NCBI GenBank assembly: GCA_021297895.1
Contig: JAJTHN010000010.1
Location: 62,001-126,000, forward strand
Direction: 5' to 3'
DNA: 64,000 nt
DNA from: Phycisphaeraceae bacterium
Lineage (GTDB): Bacteria; Planctomycetota; Phycisphaerae; Phycisphaerales; UBA1924
A program made the position numbers and the translations under genes. Shown here piece after piece: positions 7,238 to 12,724 of this stretch (position 1 is the stretch's first letter; each line of letters starts with the position of its first letter). Below the pieces are notes generated by a model. That model saw only the letters and a list, made by a program, of their open reading frames with translations, was not told where the DNA came from and ran no database searches.

Positions 7238-8809
7238 TCAGCGGGCCCGCTCGCTCGGCCGCCACGATCTCGCGATCGTTCGCGCTCGTTCGGCACCGGC
7301 TTCCATTGCGCGGGCGTACGCCTGCACACCGGCGATCTTGGCCGCATCTTCCGGACTGATCTTCAGCGCCGCCGCGTCGGCGCTGGTGCGGATGCAGAAC
7401 CCGACCATGTCCGCGGGCAACCCGTCGCTCATGAAGGTCGTGCGCAGCGTCGAGATCACCGCGCGGTAGCGCATCTGCGGCGTCGCTTCGGAGTCTTCCC
7501 ACGCCTCGAGAATCGTGCCGGATGCCTCGGTGTGATTGACCAGATCGATCGCGAGGTCGGTGTCGCTCTCGAAAGTCGCCCATGAATCGGTGCCGAAGAG
7601 GGCATCGCGCACGGCGAGGATGTGCCCGGCCCATGGGCCGATGTTGTCAAGGGTGCGATCGGGCCGCTTCGGAAGGGTCGCGGCGATAGCGCGGATGTGC
7701 TCGCCCGCGTGGGCCTCGATCTCCACGGCCAGTGCGAACGCCTCCTCGCGCTGTTCCGGCTGGATGTCCTTGAGAGCCCGAATGCCGGACTTGGGGTCGA
7801 AGCGCCGAAGCACCTCACGCGCGGCGCCCAGGGCGCGGATTGTGCCCGCTTCATTGCTCGCACGGGCGAGCGCCCGGGCGGCGCGCAGCGCATCGGCCGC
7901 GCTCTCGGTGCCCATGCCCGCGATGAAGTCGATCGCATCGCTGGCCCCATCGAGCAGGCTTGCGTCCGGGCTGGCGGGGTCCGGCGGGGGCGCATCATCG
8001 AGCGGCGCGACACGCTGGAGCCTGACGGTGGACCAGCCGCCGATGGAGAGCAGGCTCTGGGCATCCTGAGATACGGAGTACGGCACGGACCGGTCGTCGA
8101 CCCGATGGACCATGACCACGGGGTGGATGAGATCGGGCAACTGGATCAGCGACTCGGGCCACACACCCCCGGAGACACTGGCGACCCCCGTGACCAGGCG
8201 TGGGAATGAGCGGAGAAACGCGATGGACATTCTTCCGCCGCCGCCGAAGCCGCAGAGGATGATCTGCCCGGTGGGGAACTGGCGCGCGACATCGAGGATG
8301 AAGTCGCGGAGCGCGGTCACGTCGCTGGTGCGCTGTCGCCAGGCGCGTGTGCCGTCGGTGACATCGAACTCTCCGCCCTCGCTGACGGCGTCGGGCACGA
8401 CGATGATGTTGCCGGAGCGGAACATCGCGTGCGGGAGCGAGCGCGTCGCCCACAAGCGATCGGTGCCGCTTGGGTGCATCACGATGATCAGATCGCCGGG
8501 TTTGGCGGGGTCGAGCCCCTTCGGCACGGACCAGAGATACCCAAGGTTGCCGCCTCGCTTGCCGTCGATGGTCAGGCCCTTGACGCGGCTGGTGGCCTGA
8601 TACCAGGTCATCGGCTGCGCGGTGTCGAGGCCCTCGCGCGGGCTGCGCTCGGAGATGTTCGGCGCGGCCGCGCTGGAGTCGGCTGGTGCCGTCGTTGGCG
8701 GCTGGGCCGCGAGCGGCGCAGCGGGGGTGAGTGCGATCGTCGCGGCGAGCATTCCGAGCGCGATTGCTCGGGGCGTGGCGGACCGGGACGAGTGGGGGGC
8801 GCGTGGCAT
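7238..8809 (-). CDS. Exported alpha/beta-hydrolase-fold protein of unknown substrate
   Basis: 523 residues from the ATG at 8809, which follows a good ribosome site (AAGGTGA) and begins a clear signal peptide (hydrophobic core ALGMLAATIAL, cleavage probably after PAAPLAAQ). An in-frame ATG at 8884 would bury that signal peptide. The first half looks like a polyhydroxybutyrate-depolymerase or dienelactone-hydrolase type fold: LIIVMHPSGTD at the start, CGFGGGGRMS in the position of the nucleophile elbow, and VVMVHRVDDRSVPY near the acid residue. The elbow reads G-F-G-G-G instead of G-x-S-x-G, so the catalytic serine appears to be missing. The second half is helical with no recognised domain. It is the gene downstream of the RRM-containing exported protein. 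Confidence 0.6.
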   Translation of the reverse strand: MPRAPHSSRSATPRAIALGMLAATIALTPAAPLAAQPPTTAPADSSAAAPNISERSPREGLDTAQPMTWYQATSRVKGLTIDGKRGGNLGYLWSVPKGLDPAKPGDLIIVMHPSGTDRLWATRSLPHAMFRSGNIIVVPDAVSEGGEFDVTDGTRAWRQRTSDVTALRDFILDVARQFPTGQIILCGFGGGGRMSIAFLRSFPRLVTGVASVSGGVWPESLIQLPDLIHPVVMVHRVDDRSVPYSVSQDAQSLLSIGGWSTVRLQRVAPLDDAPPPDPASPDASLLDGASDAIDFIAGMGTESAADALRAARALARASNEAGTIRALGAAREVLRRFDPKSGIRALKDIQPEQREEAFALAVEIEAHAGEHIRAIAATLPKRPDRTLDNIGPWAGHILAVRDALFGTDSWATFESDTDLAIDLVNHTEASGTILEAWEDSEATPQMRYRAVISTLRTTFMSDGLPADMVGFCIRTSADAAALKISPEDAAKIAGVQAYARAMEAGAERARTIARSWRPSERAR

Positions 8810-8848
8810 GTTCACCTTCTGCCGGGCCGCACGATTGCCAGCCCCTAT

Positions 8849-8882
8849 CCCTGGACCCGTTCCCCGGACCCGTTCCCTGGAC
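8849..8882. repeat. 13-nt tandem repeat, 2.6 copies
   Basis: Unit CCCTGGACCCGTT repeated with one mismatch and then a partial third copy. It lies between the stop of the toroid/RRM gene (8886) and the start of the downstream hydrolase-like gene (8809), inside the likely 5' leader of the latter. It could be simple slippage, or it could affect the spacing between the two genes. No known element is recognised. Confidence 0.7.
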
Positions 8883-8885
8883 ATG

Positions 8886-10469
8886 TTACTTGGACTCGGC
8901 GCTCGGCGCTGCGGCGCCGTCGCGCAGGGCTTCCTGCAGCGAGAGCAGCGCGTACGCCGTGATCAGCGACGGGTTGTTCTCCATCCATCGGTCATCGACC
9001 GAGCGGAATGAGCCGTCGGCGTTCTGCATGAGCTCGAGTTGGGCAATCAGGTCGGCGCGCCAGTTGCGGACCTGCGGCACATCGGGCGAGTTGGTCATGG
9101 ATGTGGTGATCGGAGTGCCGAGGACCTCGGCCCCGTTCATCGAGGCCGCGGCCTTGCGGGCCTCGTCCTCCGCGGCGAACTGCACGAACGCGTTGCCCGT
9201 CGGCTTGCCGGTGCGCGGGTCCGGCACGAGCGTGACGCCGGCGACCTTGCCATGAGCGGAGAAGGCGTTGCGAAGGTCGTTCGCTTCGGCACCATCGCGC
9301 AGCCCGCTGACCCAGATCGTCGAGCGGTACGGCGCAAAGCGAGTGACCTCGATGCTGTCGCGGCCCAGGGCCTTCATCGCCCGGCCGAAGAGCGCGATGT
9401 AGTAGTAGTACCCGTCGGTGCCCAGGCCCGGGTTCTCGGCGAGTGTGTAGTTGTCGCGTGTCCAGTTCACGGCCGCCTGAACACGAGGGTCTGTCGGCGT
9501 GAGCCCGGCGTAGATGTAGCTCTTGAATCCGCTGTAGGTCACGCTGCCATATGCGCGCAGGCGCGAGGCCTTGGTGCCGTCGCTGAGCGTTTCCTCGATC
9601 ATTCCGGCCCACGAGTTGCCCTGGCCGGTGGTTTGTTCGTTCTCACCGGTCGCGTAGATGAAGCCGCCCTGCGTGGAACCTTTGGCGTACGCCATTTCGT
9701 TGACCGGCGTGCCATCGGGCAGTTTCTCGAGCATCTGAACGCGCTGGAGGAACGTGATCGCGCGGGCGAAGGCGGGATCGTCCTTGGGCAGGCCGGCATC
9801 GTGCCAGGCCTGAATGGTGAAGGCGAGGTTGGACAGGTCGGGGCGTCCGCGGTTGCCGTAGCCAAGGCCGCCGAAGTTCGGGTTGTCGGCGGTGACGACG
9901 GCCGGGGTCTCCTTGCCGGTTCCGGCGATGCCGACGGGTTCGGGCGCGCCCCATTGTGATCGCCTGAGGAACTCGACCCCCGGGGCGATGCGAGCGAGCG
10001 CTTCGGCCGTGTTCAAGCGTGTGAGCATGGAGATGCTGATGGCGGTGTTGTAAACCGGCAGCATGCTGTCATAGATCCCGCCGTCATCGCGTGCGAAGGA
10101 GAGCACATACGCCGCGCCGCGGGCGATGTGGGCATCGCGATGGTCGAGGCCGGGCTGCATGAGCATGCCCGTGAGAACGAGGCTGCTGATGGCGGGCAGG
10201 TGGGGCCTGCCGGGCTCGGTGGGGACGCTCCAGCCGCCGGTGGCGGGGTCCTGTTGGGTGCGGAGGAAGTCGATGGCCTTGCGGGCGATGGCCTCGCCGC
10301 GCTGGCGCACATCCGCGCTCAGCGGGTCGGCGGTGCTGGCGGCCGCGGGCGCGGCGGCGGCGTTTTGGGGCCCGGTGGTCTGGGCGATCGACGCGGCGGC
10401 GATGGCCAGCAATCCCGAGGCGAACGCGAGTGCGGATCGAGAGCGCAGCGAGCCGGAGCGGGTGTTCAT
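8886..10469 (-). CDS. Exported alpha/alpha-toroid (prenyltransferase/squalene-oxidase-repeat-like) protein with an RRM domain
   Basis: 527 residues from the ATG at 10469, chosen because it starts a clear signal peptide (SALAFASGLLAIAAASIAQ). Residues about 50-380 contain repeats such as AIDFLRTQQDPATGGW and GGIYDSMLPVYNTAISISML, typical of the terpene-cyclase-like toroid found in many secreted planctomycete proteins of unknown role. Residues about 383-458 are a different fold: IWVSGL (RNP2-like, 385-390) and TGNAFVQF (RNP1-like, 424-431) frame an alpha-beta pattern that matches an RNA recognition motif. After it the toroid pattern resumes (NWRADLIAQLELMQNADGSF, then RWMENNPSLITAYALLSL). The RRM therefore appears inserted in the toroid. 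Function unknown; not a real terpene cyclase, since no DxDD catalytic motif is seen. Confidence 0.75.
   Translation of the reverse strand: MNTRSGSLRSRSALAFASGLLAIAAASIAQTTGPQNAAAAPAAASTADPLSADVRQRGEAIARKAIDFLRTQQDPATGGWSVPTEPGRPHLPAISSLVLTGMLMQPGLDHRDAHIARGAAYVLSFARDDGGIYDSMLPVYNTAISISMLTRLNTAEALARIAPGVEFLRRSQWGAPEPVGIAGTGKETPAVVTADNPNFGGLGYGNRGRPDLSNLAFTIQAWHDAGLPKDDPAFARAITFLQRVQMLEKLPDGTPVNEMAYAKGSTQGGFIYATGENEQTTGQGNSWAGMIEETLSDGTKASRLRAYGSVTYSGFKSYIYAGLTPTDPRVQAAVNWTRDNYTLAENPGLGTDGYYYYIALFGRAMKALGRDSIEVTRFAPYRSTIWVSGLRDGAEANDLRNAFSAHGKVAGVTLVPDPRTGKPTGNAFVQFAAEDEARKAAASMNGAEVLGTPITTSMTNSPDVPQVRNWRADLIAQLELMQNADGSFRSVDDRWMENNPSLITAYALLSLQEALRDGAAAPSAESK
9096..9323 (-). other. RRM (RNA recognition motif) domain inside the exported toroid protein
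   Basis: Residues 383-458 of the 8886-10469 protein. Order of elements: strand TIWVSGL, helix ANDLRNAFSAHG, strand VAGVTLVPDPRTGK, strand TGNAFVQF, helix EDEARKAAASMNG, closing strand PITTSM. RNP2 keeps an aromatic residue (Trp386). RNP1 keeps Phe428 and Phe431 but has Asn426 where the first aromatic or basic contact residue is usual. The alignment to small bacterial RRM proteins such as cyanobacterial Rbp is by eye. Confidence 0.8.
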
Positions 10470-10521: not shown

Positions 10522-10556
10522 CGGGCGCGGGGCCGCACGAGAGGGCGGTCGGGCGG

Positions 10557-11357
10557 TCAACCGGAGTCCGTTCCCGCGCTCGCCCGCGAGGCCGAAAACA
10601 CCCCACGCACCAGCACCGCCGCGGCGACGCACGCGGTCTCCAGCCGCATGATGTTCGGCCCGAGCGAGACACCGATCGCCCCCGCGGCCAGCGCGCGGCC
10701 ACGTTCATCGTCGGTCCATCCGCCCTCCGGCCCGATGAGCACGCGCACGCGCGTGATCGTTCCCCCGCCGCGATCGGAGGCTTGAGCAGCCAGCGCCGGT
10801 CCGATCGGCAGGCCCGTCGCATCGGCAATCAGCACGCGGGTTCCCGGAGCGGGGCTCAGGGCTTCATCGAAGGACATCGGCGTCAGCGTCGCGCGCAACA
10901 GCCACGCGCGGCCGCTCTGCTTGAGCGATTCGATGCACACCCGCTGCACGCGCTCGCCGCGGCGCTCGCTGGGTTCGACGACGGCGCGCTGGGCCGCGAG
11001 AGTGCGCCACTCGCACGCGCCGCACTGGCTGAGTTGGTCGATCATGTCCTCGAGCCGACCACCTTTGGGAGCGGGCGAACATATGATGACGTCCGGCGCG
11101 GGCCGCGGCTCGTGCCGAACATCAGTCAGCCGCAGCAGCACGTTGCCCGGCTGCTTGCGTTGCGCCGGCGACAGCGACTCGACAAGGCTCATCGCCACCC
11201 CGCCCGCGCCATCGTGAACCTGAACTTGGTCGCCGATCCGGATGCGCTTGACATTCTGAGCGTGATGGGCCTCATCATCGACAAGGGCAACCATGCTCCC
11301 GGGCCCGGCAAGGGGCTGATCAACAAACACACGATGGGCCGCGCCGGGATGGTGCAT
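10557..11357 (-). CDS. rsmE: 16S rRNA (uracil-1498-N3)-methyltransferase (RsmE)
   Basis: 266 residues, the normal family size. SPOUT-fold enzyme that methylates N3 of U1498 in 16S rRNA using S-adenosylmethionine. Diagnostic motifs: a PUA-like N-terminal segment (residues about 15-80), PAPKGGRLEDMIDQLSQCG at 96-114, VLIGPEGGWTDDE at 206-218 and LGPNIMRLETA at 232-242, the knot region that binds the cofactor. The usual second arginine of LG-x-R-I-L-R has become Asn (LGPNIMR). It diverges from the gene at 11516. Confidence 0.92.
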   Translation of the reverse strand: MHHPGAAHRVFVDQPLAGPGSMVALVDDEAHHAQNVKRIRIGDQVQVHDGAGGVAMSLVESLSPAQRKQPGNVLLRLTDVRHEPRPAPDVIICSPAPKGGRLEDMIDQLSQCGACEWRTLAAQRAVVEPSERRGERVQRVCIESLKQSGRAWLLRATLTPMSFDEALSPAPGTRVLIADATGLPIGPALAAQASDRGGGTITRVRVLIGPEGGWTDDERGRALAAGAIGVSLGPNIMRLETACVAAAVLVRGVFSASRASAGTDSG

Positions 11358-11515: not shown

Positions 11516-12724
11516 ATGAGCGCCGCACAGGCACAAGCCGAGGACCTTGACAAGCGCGTGGGCGATCTGCTCACCCAGGTCGAGCAGACCACCGCGCGCG
11601 TTGAGGCCGAACTCGATGGCAAGCCTCAGGGTGTTGACAATCCCGACGCTGAGCCGGCGGAGGAGCCCGCGGCCGCGGAGCCCGCGCCCGCCGCACCGAG
11701 TCCGGAGGGCGTGCCGCTTTCTACGGAATCTGGCGTGCCATCAACGCCGGTCGACCTTGAGCAGGGTGTCGCGTCGGCGATCGAGCAGGCGCAGGCGAAT
11801 GCCGAGTCTCCGCTGGACTCGCAGGTGGATGCCGCGGTGGCTCAGGCCCAAACGCAGGTTCCCGCCCCCGCGAGCGAAGCCGGCGTTGAGCCCGCGAACG
11901 CGGAGCCGCCAGTCGCCGATGCGCCCGGCACCGACGCGGTCGAGGAGATTGAACCACCCTCGTCGGCGGCACCCGCGGCCGGCGAGGCCTCCGCGTCAAC
12001 GCCAGCCTCTTCCGCTCCGGTGCCGCGGCCCGCTGCCGAGGCTATTGCGACACTCGACGAGCAATTGGCATCCGCGGCGGGCAGCGCGCTCGACGACGAG
12101 TTCGTCGATCCGACACAGATTCTCGGAGCGGCCGCCGCGGCGGGTACGCCCGCGCTCACGACCGTGCCCGTCTCCCCGTCTGGCGCTGCCGCGAGTGTGC
12201 CGTCGTCTGCACAGTCCGCTGCGCCGTCCCCGGCGGCGGCTCCGATGCCGTCTCCGGCGGCGGTGCCAACTCCTGCCCCATCAGCGGCGCCGGCGCCGGC
12301 TGCCCCACCCGCGGCCGCGCCGAGCGTCGAGGTCACCCCGAAGCCCAAGCGGAAGGTGAGCATCGCGCTCCCGTTGAACCTGATCGTCGCACCGATCACG
12401 CCTTATCTGCTCAAGCTCGGCGCGGTACCGGAAAAGACCCGCCAGACCATCGGTTGGGCCGCGCTGGTCACGCTGTTCAACGCCGGCGTGCTCTGGGGCT
12501 GGGTGCTGATGCAGGGGCCGCCCGATCTCGCCGCGGCGAGCACCGATCAGCCCGGGCTCGTTGGCGAAGATGGCACGGCACACGGTGCGGTGAAGGGCAC
12601 GGGTAAGCCCACCGCTGCGGGCCACGACGAGCACGGCGCCAAGAGCGAAGCCAAAGCGGCCAAGAAGGACAAGACGAAGAAGGACGAGAAGGCCGCCAAG
12701 AAAGATGATCACGGCGGCCATTGA
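11516..12724 (+). CDS. Ala/Pro-rich protein with one membrane helix and Lys/His-rich tail, unknown function
   Basis: 402 residues, not recognised. Residues about 5-35 form a likely amphipathic helix (EDLDKRVGDLLTQVEQTTAR). Residues 40-275 are a long disordered Ala/Pro/Glu/Ser stretch. Residues about 278-335 look conserved and folded: a basic KPKRK, a hydrophobic SIALPLNLIVAPITPYLL and a membrane helix TIGWAALVTLFNAGVLWGWV. The last 45 residues are dominated by Lys, Asp, Ala and His. Codon use and GC match the neighbours. It could be a membrane-anchored linker or envelope protein with a long disordered arm; this is only a description. Its stop is 7 nt from the convergent kinase gene. Confidence 0.7.
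   Translation: MSAAQAQAEDLDKRVGDLLTQVEQTTARVEAELDGKPQGVDNPDAEPAEEPAAAEPAPAAPSPEGVPLSTESGVPSTPVDLEQGVASAIEQAQANAESPLDSQVDAAVAQAQTQVPAPASEAGVEPANAEPPVADAPGTDAVEEIEPPSSAAPAAGEASASTPASSAPVPRPAAEAIATLDEQLASAAGSALDDEFVDPTQILGAAAAAGTPALTTVPVSPSGAAASVPSSAQSAAPSPAAAPMPSPAAVPTPAPSAAPAPAAPPAAAPSVEVTPKPKRKVSIALPLNLIVAPITPYLLKLGAVPEKTRQTIGWAALVTLFNAGVLWGWVLMQGPPDLAAASTDQPGLVGEDGTAHGAVKGTGKPTAAGHDEHGAKSEAKAAKKDKTKKDEKAAKKDDHGGH

Follow-up and report, generated by a model that had tools for sequence, protein, structure and literature searches.

The two folds that meet in the protein described here are both known. One is the RNA recognition motif (RRM), carried by small single-RRM bacterial proteins of the Rbp/RbpB type; the segment discussed below shares their RRM_1 match, at 52.2 bits, and reaches 41.1 bits on the profile NF058537 (Rbp_regulator), below its curated cut-off of 100. 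The residues of the RRM family that stack on RNA are aromatics at RNP2-2, RNP1-3 and RNP1-5, which are typical of the family and not required. Nine small RRMs from these genomes are separate open reading frames with LYVGNL- and RGFGFVEF-like motifs, mostly Y-F-F at the three aromatic positions, and a net negative charge. The other fold is the toroid of squalene-hopene cyclases and class II terpene cyclases (2sqc, 8pak, MstE), enzymes with DxDD as their catalytic acid motif. A third point of comparison is the planctomycetal family of apparently exported toroids to which the protein belongs, whose members have the same toroid and conserved stretches, whereas a short linker of 16–37 residues takes the place of the RRM in 57 of the 69 sequences compared. 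As a functional idea, the nearest is Zea, a secreted Listeria protein reported to bind RNA, which is not known to have an RRM or a toroid. In the titles and abstract openings of the open-licence literature, no RRM inside an exported toroid was found, and nothing about such an architecture came up for exported bacterial RRMs or for a planctomycete toroid family; on this weak evidence, the combination, together with the natural loss series described below, may be new to the literature so covered.

The gene lies on the minus strand of the window, that is, the whole stretch of 64,000 nucleotides from a Phycisphaeraceae bacterium that was analysed. Its coding sequence (8886..10469, 527 aa) begins with ATG at 10469 and ends with the stop codon at 8888–8886, and an alternative GTG start at 10538 would add 23 residues. 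From its N-terminus, the protein consists of a signal-peptide-like stretch (residues 1–29, 10383..10469, from the sequence and a heuristic with controls), the N-terminal part of the toroid (residues 52–375, 9345..10316, from alignment, AlphaFold and VIA-align), the core of the RRM insert (residues 385–454, 9108..9317, from Pfam, AlphaFold, Foldseek and the RNP motifs) and the last two toroid helices (residues 466–515, 8925..9074, from alignment and AlphaFold), which include the motif QNADGSF...RWMENNP. In the structural model, whose numbering is brought to that of the ATG start by adding 40, the N-terminal part of the toroid runs from helix 12–32 to helix 314–328.

An initial annotation of this DNA had read residues 383–458 (window 9323–9096, exactly) as an RRM set between two toroid helices of a protein with a signal peptide, and profile, model and heuristic agree with that reading, the start of the protein being signal-peptide-like. 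RRM_1 (PF00076) matches residues 385–454 with 52.2 bits, against a gathering cut-off of 20.7 (E = 5.7e-14). In the AlphaFold model (alignment of 26 sequences; pLDDT 88.3, pTM 0.83), the segment is predicted to form an RRM in the full beta-alpha-beta-beta-alpha-beta order: by DSSP and in model numbering, a strand at 344–348, a helix at 356–366, strands at 369–376 and 383–391, a helix at 394–404 and a strand at 415–418. Toroid helices border it on both sides (314–328 and 430–441). The RNP2-like IWVSGL and the RNP1-like TGNAFVQF pointed out earlier are both present, with Asn rather than Phe or Tyr at RNP1 position 3. Foldseek places the RRM of hnRNP A18 first (5tbx_A, 78 columns, 1.2 Å, 31% identity), and the best 50 rows for the model are a mix of RRMs and squalene-hopene cyclases. 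When the insert is compared by phmmer with solved structures, 141 distinct sequences are matched at E≤0.001, with poly(A)-binding protein and nucleolin at the top. A chance match is ruled out by the RRM_1 score, by the Foldseek result and by an HMM of the small RRMs with shuffled controls, described below. The window insert is an RRM by its profile and its predicted fold, and the missing third aromatic lowers only canonical RNA binding. It differs from the small RRMs in its place within a toroid that looks exported, in its neutral charge and in the loss of one RNP aromatic out of three; its identity to the genome's two further RRMs is 38% and 30%.

Could the junction of the two folds be an artefact? 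An assembly or gene-model chimera is ruled out, as the homologues of other genomes carry the insert in a single open frame; it is also unlikely because a relative from another genome aligns with residues 39–516 of the window protein, with 60% identity in the best segment. A recent arrival of a foreign gene piece was considered as well and has left no sign, the GC3 being 0.90 in the insert versus 0.87 and 0.88 in the flanks.

As for the toroid, it superposes on squalene-hopene cyclase 2sqc with a VIA Z of 28.1 (2.6 Å over 289 residues, 17% identity) and on the single-domain 8pak with a Z of 26.0 over 294 residues. These Z scores, obtained over model residues 11–478, fit a ring that would close with the RRM looped out. 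SQHop_cyclase_C is found at E≤1 in all 26 family members searched; the window protein stays below the cut-off (14.6–15.1 versus 26.1 bits), and several homologues rise above it, such as L037 with 37.2 bits. Unlike a squalene-hopene cyclase, the window protein has a signal-peptide-like start and no DxDD. Cyclase activity is not implied by the shared fold, and an active terpene cyclase is ruled out by the missing DxDD. The string DxDD does occur in 18 of the 69 sequences, within loop stretches that by eye are not conserved. Among the 26 members, the stretches GGxGYG..RPDxSN, RLRxYGS and RWMEN are invariant or nearly so, and many other toroid residues are invariant too; therefore, the toroid is under the constraint of a function.

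Toroids of this family are widespread among planctomycetes. Homologues were found in all 61 genomes searched first (E≤0.001, at which some matches may be to the RRM alone), in 155 of 163 genomes of the family (E≤1e-30), in 350 of 400 of the order (E≤1e-40) and in 236 of 294 sampled Planctomycetota genomes (E≤1e-20). Of 31 homologous contigs, 29 are labelled as Planctomycetota groups, mostly Phycisphaerales, and the other two as an uncultured bacterium and as Leptolyngbya sp. PLA1.

Export of this protein is predicted from its N-terminus, where a basic n-region is followed by a 17-residue hydrophobic core and by A-S-I-A before a Gln; cleavage after A-S-I-A would make a plausible type I signal peptide. 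An ad hoc test, which asks for a basic start or a very hydrophobic core, a hydrophobic 11-mer and a small-x-small site, is passed by 68 of the 69 family N-termini, the window protein included, and by 151 of 1380 shuffled N-termini; none of the nine small RRM proteins passes, these being taken as stop-to-stop frames and regarded as cytosolic by inference. The sole family member that fails (L071) looks signal-like by eye and has no basic residue ahead of its hydrophobic stretch.

How common is the insert? The census of the family's genomes gave matches in 155 of 163; 150 rows were listed and 131 full-length ones used, the 19 left out being incomplete, lying at the end of a contig or divided at a second site. 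The extra length over the profile has two peaks, with 56–109 extra residues in 12 of the 131 and at most 24 in all the others. Nine of the 12 long inserts are of the RRM type by position, clade and sequence: that of the window (G000) and those of G018, G088, G089, G068, G069, G032, G127 and G035. Eight of these keep the insert in an open frame, in loops of 94–121 residues, and that of G035 is a short remnant, in a loop of 74 residues with the linkers included. The remaining 119 toroids have no long insert, and none was seen by eye among the matches listed for toroids of the phylum outside this family. In three genomes, the loop of the toroid that carries the RRM elsewhere is occupied by unrelated inserts, with loops of 71–124 residues: G027 (L007:1381–2934), G016 (L024:579–2261) and G019 (L031). 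Pfam found no inserted domain at E≤0.1 in L059, L060, L062, L061, L007 and L024, which had odd match patterns or other inserts. Insertions also occur at a second place, close to profile position 246, where the match to the toroid is divided in at least 13 of the family's genomes, all among the 19 rows left out (G003, G012, G020, G029, G061, G062, G082, G083, G084, G141, G144, G145 and G146).

On a tree of 69 sequences, computed with the insert columns excluded and drawn with a midpoint root, all nine RRM-type sequences fall inside one clade of 11 with support of 100/99. This leaves repeated independent insertions of an RRM unsupported. The other two members of the clade, L113 and L042, have no insert and are nested within it as sisters of the insert-bearing L070. 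The presence and absence of the insert takes two changes on this tree, and forcing the nine insert-bearers into a clade without L113 and L042 is rejected (p-AU 0.012, in a test chosen after the tree was seen); for these reasons, the most likely history of the insert is a single gain and a single loss. A gain, rather than many losses, is indicated by its absence from the rest of the family. The linker of L113 and L042 has 21 residues, like that of many outgroups, and the excision was apparently clean. Inner nodes of the insert clade are weak (84/20 and 83/79), and the data do not reject (p-AU 0.132) a tree on which the other nine members group together to the exclusion of the window protein and G018; given this alternative and the weak inner branches, the number of losses of the RNA-contact face would range from one to three.

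The inserts themselves have drifted far apart. They are 23–41% identical, versus 52–68% for the toroids, the low end being unsure in global alignments of such short, divergent stretches. RRM_1 is above its cut-off in only two of the nine, the window (52.2 bits) and G088 (27.3 bits); G018 (18.2 bits) and G089 (16.7 bits) match at E<0.01 below the cut-off, and the other five give no match at E≤10. An HMM was also built from the nine small RRMs; these had been chosen, from the loci retrieved, for matching the window insert best, so that the score of the latter is favoured. RRM_1, independent of that choice, shows much the same. The HMM gives 58.8 bits for the window, 26.8 for G088, 18.8 for G018, 8.4 for G089, 5.9 for G127, 3.9 for G035, 3.5 for G032, 0.9 for G068 and 0.0 for G069, and −0.3 to −0.9 for the three unrelated inserts. 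Out of 500 shuffles made per insert, 362–492 were reported by hmmsearch, and the counts refer to these: the score of the real insert is equalled or exceeded by none for G000, G018, G088, G089 and G035, and by 4 for G127, 5 for G032, 28 for G068 and 43 for G069. Since shuffles reach the real scores of these last four, it is position and clade, with a predicted fold in one case, that point to an RRM origin.

The fold in question is that of G069, which at 0.0 bits and with no RRM_1 match at E≤10 is nevertheless modelled as beta-alpha-beta-beta-alpha-beta with a mean pLDDT of 90.4. Among its best 50 Foldseek rows there is no RRM, toroid proteins filling them, and the window protein and further sequences with inserts were in the alignment behind the model, a possible source of bias; for these two reasons the model is taken as support and not as proof.

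At the RNP aromatic positions, the window insert reads W-N-F (two of three) and that of G018 W-F-F (three of three), and all three aromatics are gone in six of the eight inserts that could be read, with positions in the divergent ones taken from a multiple alignment and possibly off. The window insert also has Thr in place of the basic Arg at RNP1-1. Net charge has moved too: the small RRM cores, nine in all, carry −3 to −8, and the nine inserts carry −2 to +4 (L065, L109, L123, L069, L071, L121, L068, L070 and L072); such a shift would suit a changed environment but proves nothing.

What, then, may have happened in this clade? The account that we favour, and hold to be somewhat probable, is a single insertion of an RRM into an exported toroid, whose fold outlived its RNA-binding face and which now would serve as a peripheral module for structure or contacts. 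In what is also the simplest history, one copy of a small single-RRM gene would have entered the toroid gene in the common ancestor of a small group of bacteria of Phycisphaerales type, at a tolerant loop of the rim just ahead of the final two helices. Its source would be the small single-RRM type present in these genomes, presumably cytosolic. Afterward, the RRM fold would have been kept in several descendants and the RNA-contact face lost in most, with the insert reduced to a remnant in one descendant and excised in one sub-lineage. At present the insert would most likely decorate the rim of the toroid as a folded domain and make contacts outside the cytoplasm, be they structural or with proteins or ligands. 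The main function of the family would be carried by the highly conserved residues of the toroid and not by the RRM, possibly together with a hydrolase encoded downstream. The RRM fold of the window protein, by model and sequence, the loss of the RNP aromatics, and one gain with one nested loss on the tree, are observed; export, the source of the insert, the closure of the ring, the decoration role and the partnership with the hydrolase are what we infer from them and from the models. The series is graded within a single family, from an RNA-binding domain inserted into an exported ring protein to the loss of the RNA face, to shrinkage and to excision, and it offers a test of what becomes of a domain's function once the domain has left the cytoplasm: kept, changed or dropped. 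It also carries a warning, as an RRM match in an exported protein need not imply RNA binding.

The initial annotation had suggested that the exported RRM could bind extracellular nucleic acid. Taken generally, this finds no support, in view of the aromatics lost in six of eight readable inserts, the one remnant and the sub-lineage without an insert; in most relatives the RRM is probably no RNA binder any more, and a structural or contact role fits the clade better. To judge from the residues kept, extracellular RNA binding is credible only for the window protein and G018, its nearest insert-bearing relative. In these two, a working RRM for RNA or single-stranded DNA might tether the toroid to nucleic acid in the periplasm or outside the cell, and have been lost elsewhere. 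Of all the inserts, that of the window resembles an RRM most closely, by a wide margin (58.8 bits, and 52.2 with RRM_1), and keeps two of the three aromatics, G018 keeps all three, and both inserts are neutral and not acidic. Pure neglect would not favour the keeping of aromatics in these two, which counts against the account preferred above. Against a working RRM stand the Asn at RNP1-3 and the Thr at RNP1-1 of the window insert, the score of G018 below the RRM_1 cut-off (18.2 bits), the disappearance of all three aromatics from six related inserts and the fact that we know of no nucleic-acid ligand for such a toroid. Tethering of this kind is in our judgement quite improbable, and the fuller proposal, in which the exported toroids of the window and G018 would hold RNA or single-stranded DNA outside the cytoplasm through a working RRM while the other lineages serve as natural loss-of-function comparisons, is a long shot. 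RNA binding by the window copy, if real, would give bacteria an uncommon means of handling nucleic acid outside the cytoplasm, through an RRM-based extracytoplasmic binder.

A different possibility is that the insert is near-neutral baggage in a tolerant loop, a harmless fold without function in every lineage and on its way to being lost. Its absence from a nested sub-lineage, its reduction to a 74-residue loop in another sequence, the fast divergence of the inserts and the unrelated inserts in the same loop of three other genomes all speak for it; yet open-frame loops of 94–121 residues persist in eight sequences across deep divergence, and a divergent copy still models confidently as beta-alpha-beta-beta-alpha-beta, which would be unlikely for a functionless insert, so that we regard this view as unlikely. 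One could also suppose that the protein stays in the cytoplasm, its hydrophobic N-terminal stretch not being a cleaved signal and its RRM being an ordinary cytosolic RNA chaperone domain. To our knowledge, bacterial RRMs are otherwise known from cytosolic proteins, which would favour this supposition, but signal-peptide-like N-termini in 68 of 69 family members versus none of nine small RRM proteins, and an RNA face gone in most relatives, make it hardly credible.

The neighbouring genes were surveyed at 31 loci, with flanks of at most 4 kb and some contigs that end early. Immediately downstream of the toroid gene, on the same minus strand, lies an alpha/beta hydrolase (7238..8884; DLH/Abhydrolase_2, from the open reading frames and Pfam) whose N-terminus, judged by eye, resembles a signal. 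The longest frame of the hydrolase opens 1 bp past the toroid stop; translation may really begin at a later ATG of the same frame, 75 bp further on and directly ahead of the signal-like stretch. A homologue of the hydrolase is near the toroid in four of the 31 loci, and an operon partnership between the two would be possible. Upstream, again on the minus strand, is a gene for an RsmE-type rRNA methyltransferase (10557..11357; Pfam Methyltrans_RNA, 2.6e-29), found near the toroid in 11 of the 31 loci, a recurrent neighbour that probably has no functional link. Beyond the RsmE gene and on the opposite strand, a protein of 402 residues rich in Ala and Pro is encoded at 11516–12724; it has no Pfam match at E≤0.1, and a similar frame, on the strand opposite the toroid, occurs in four of the 31 loci.
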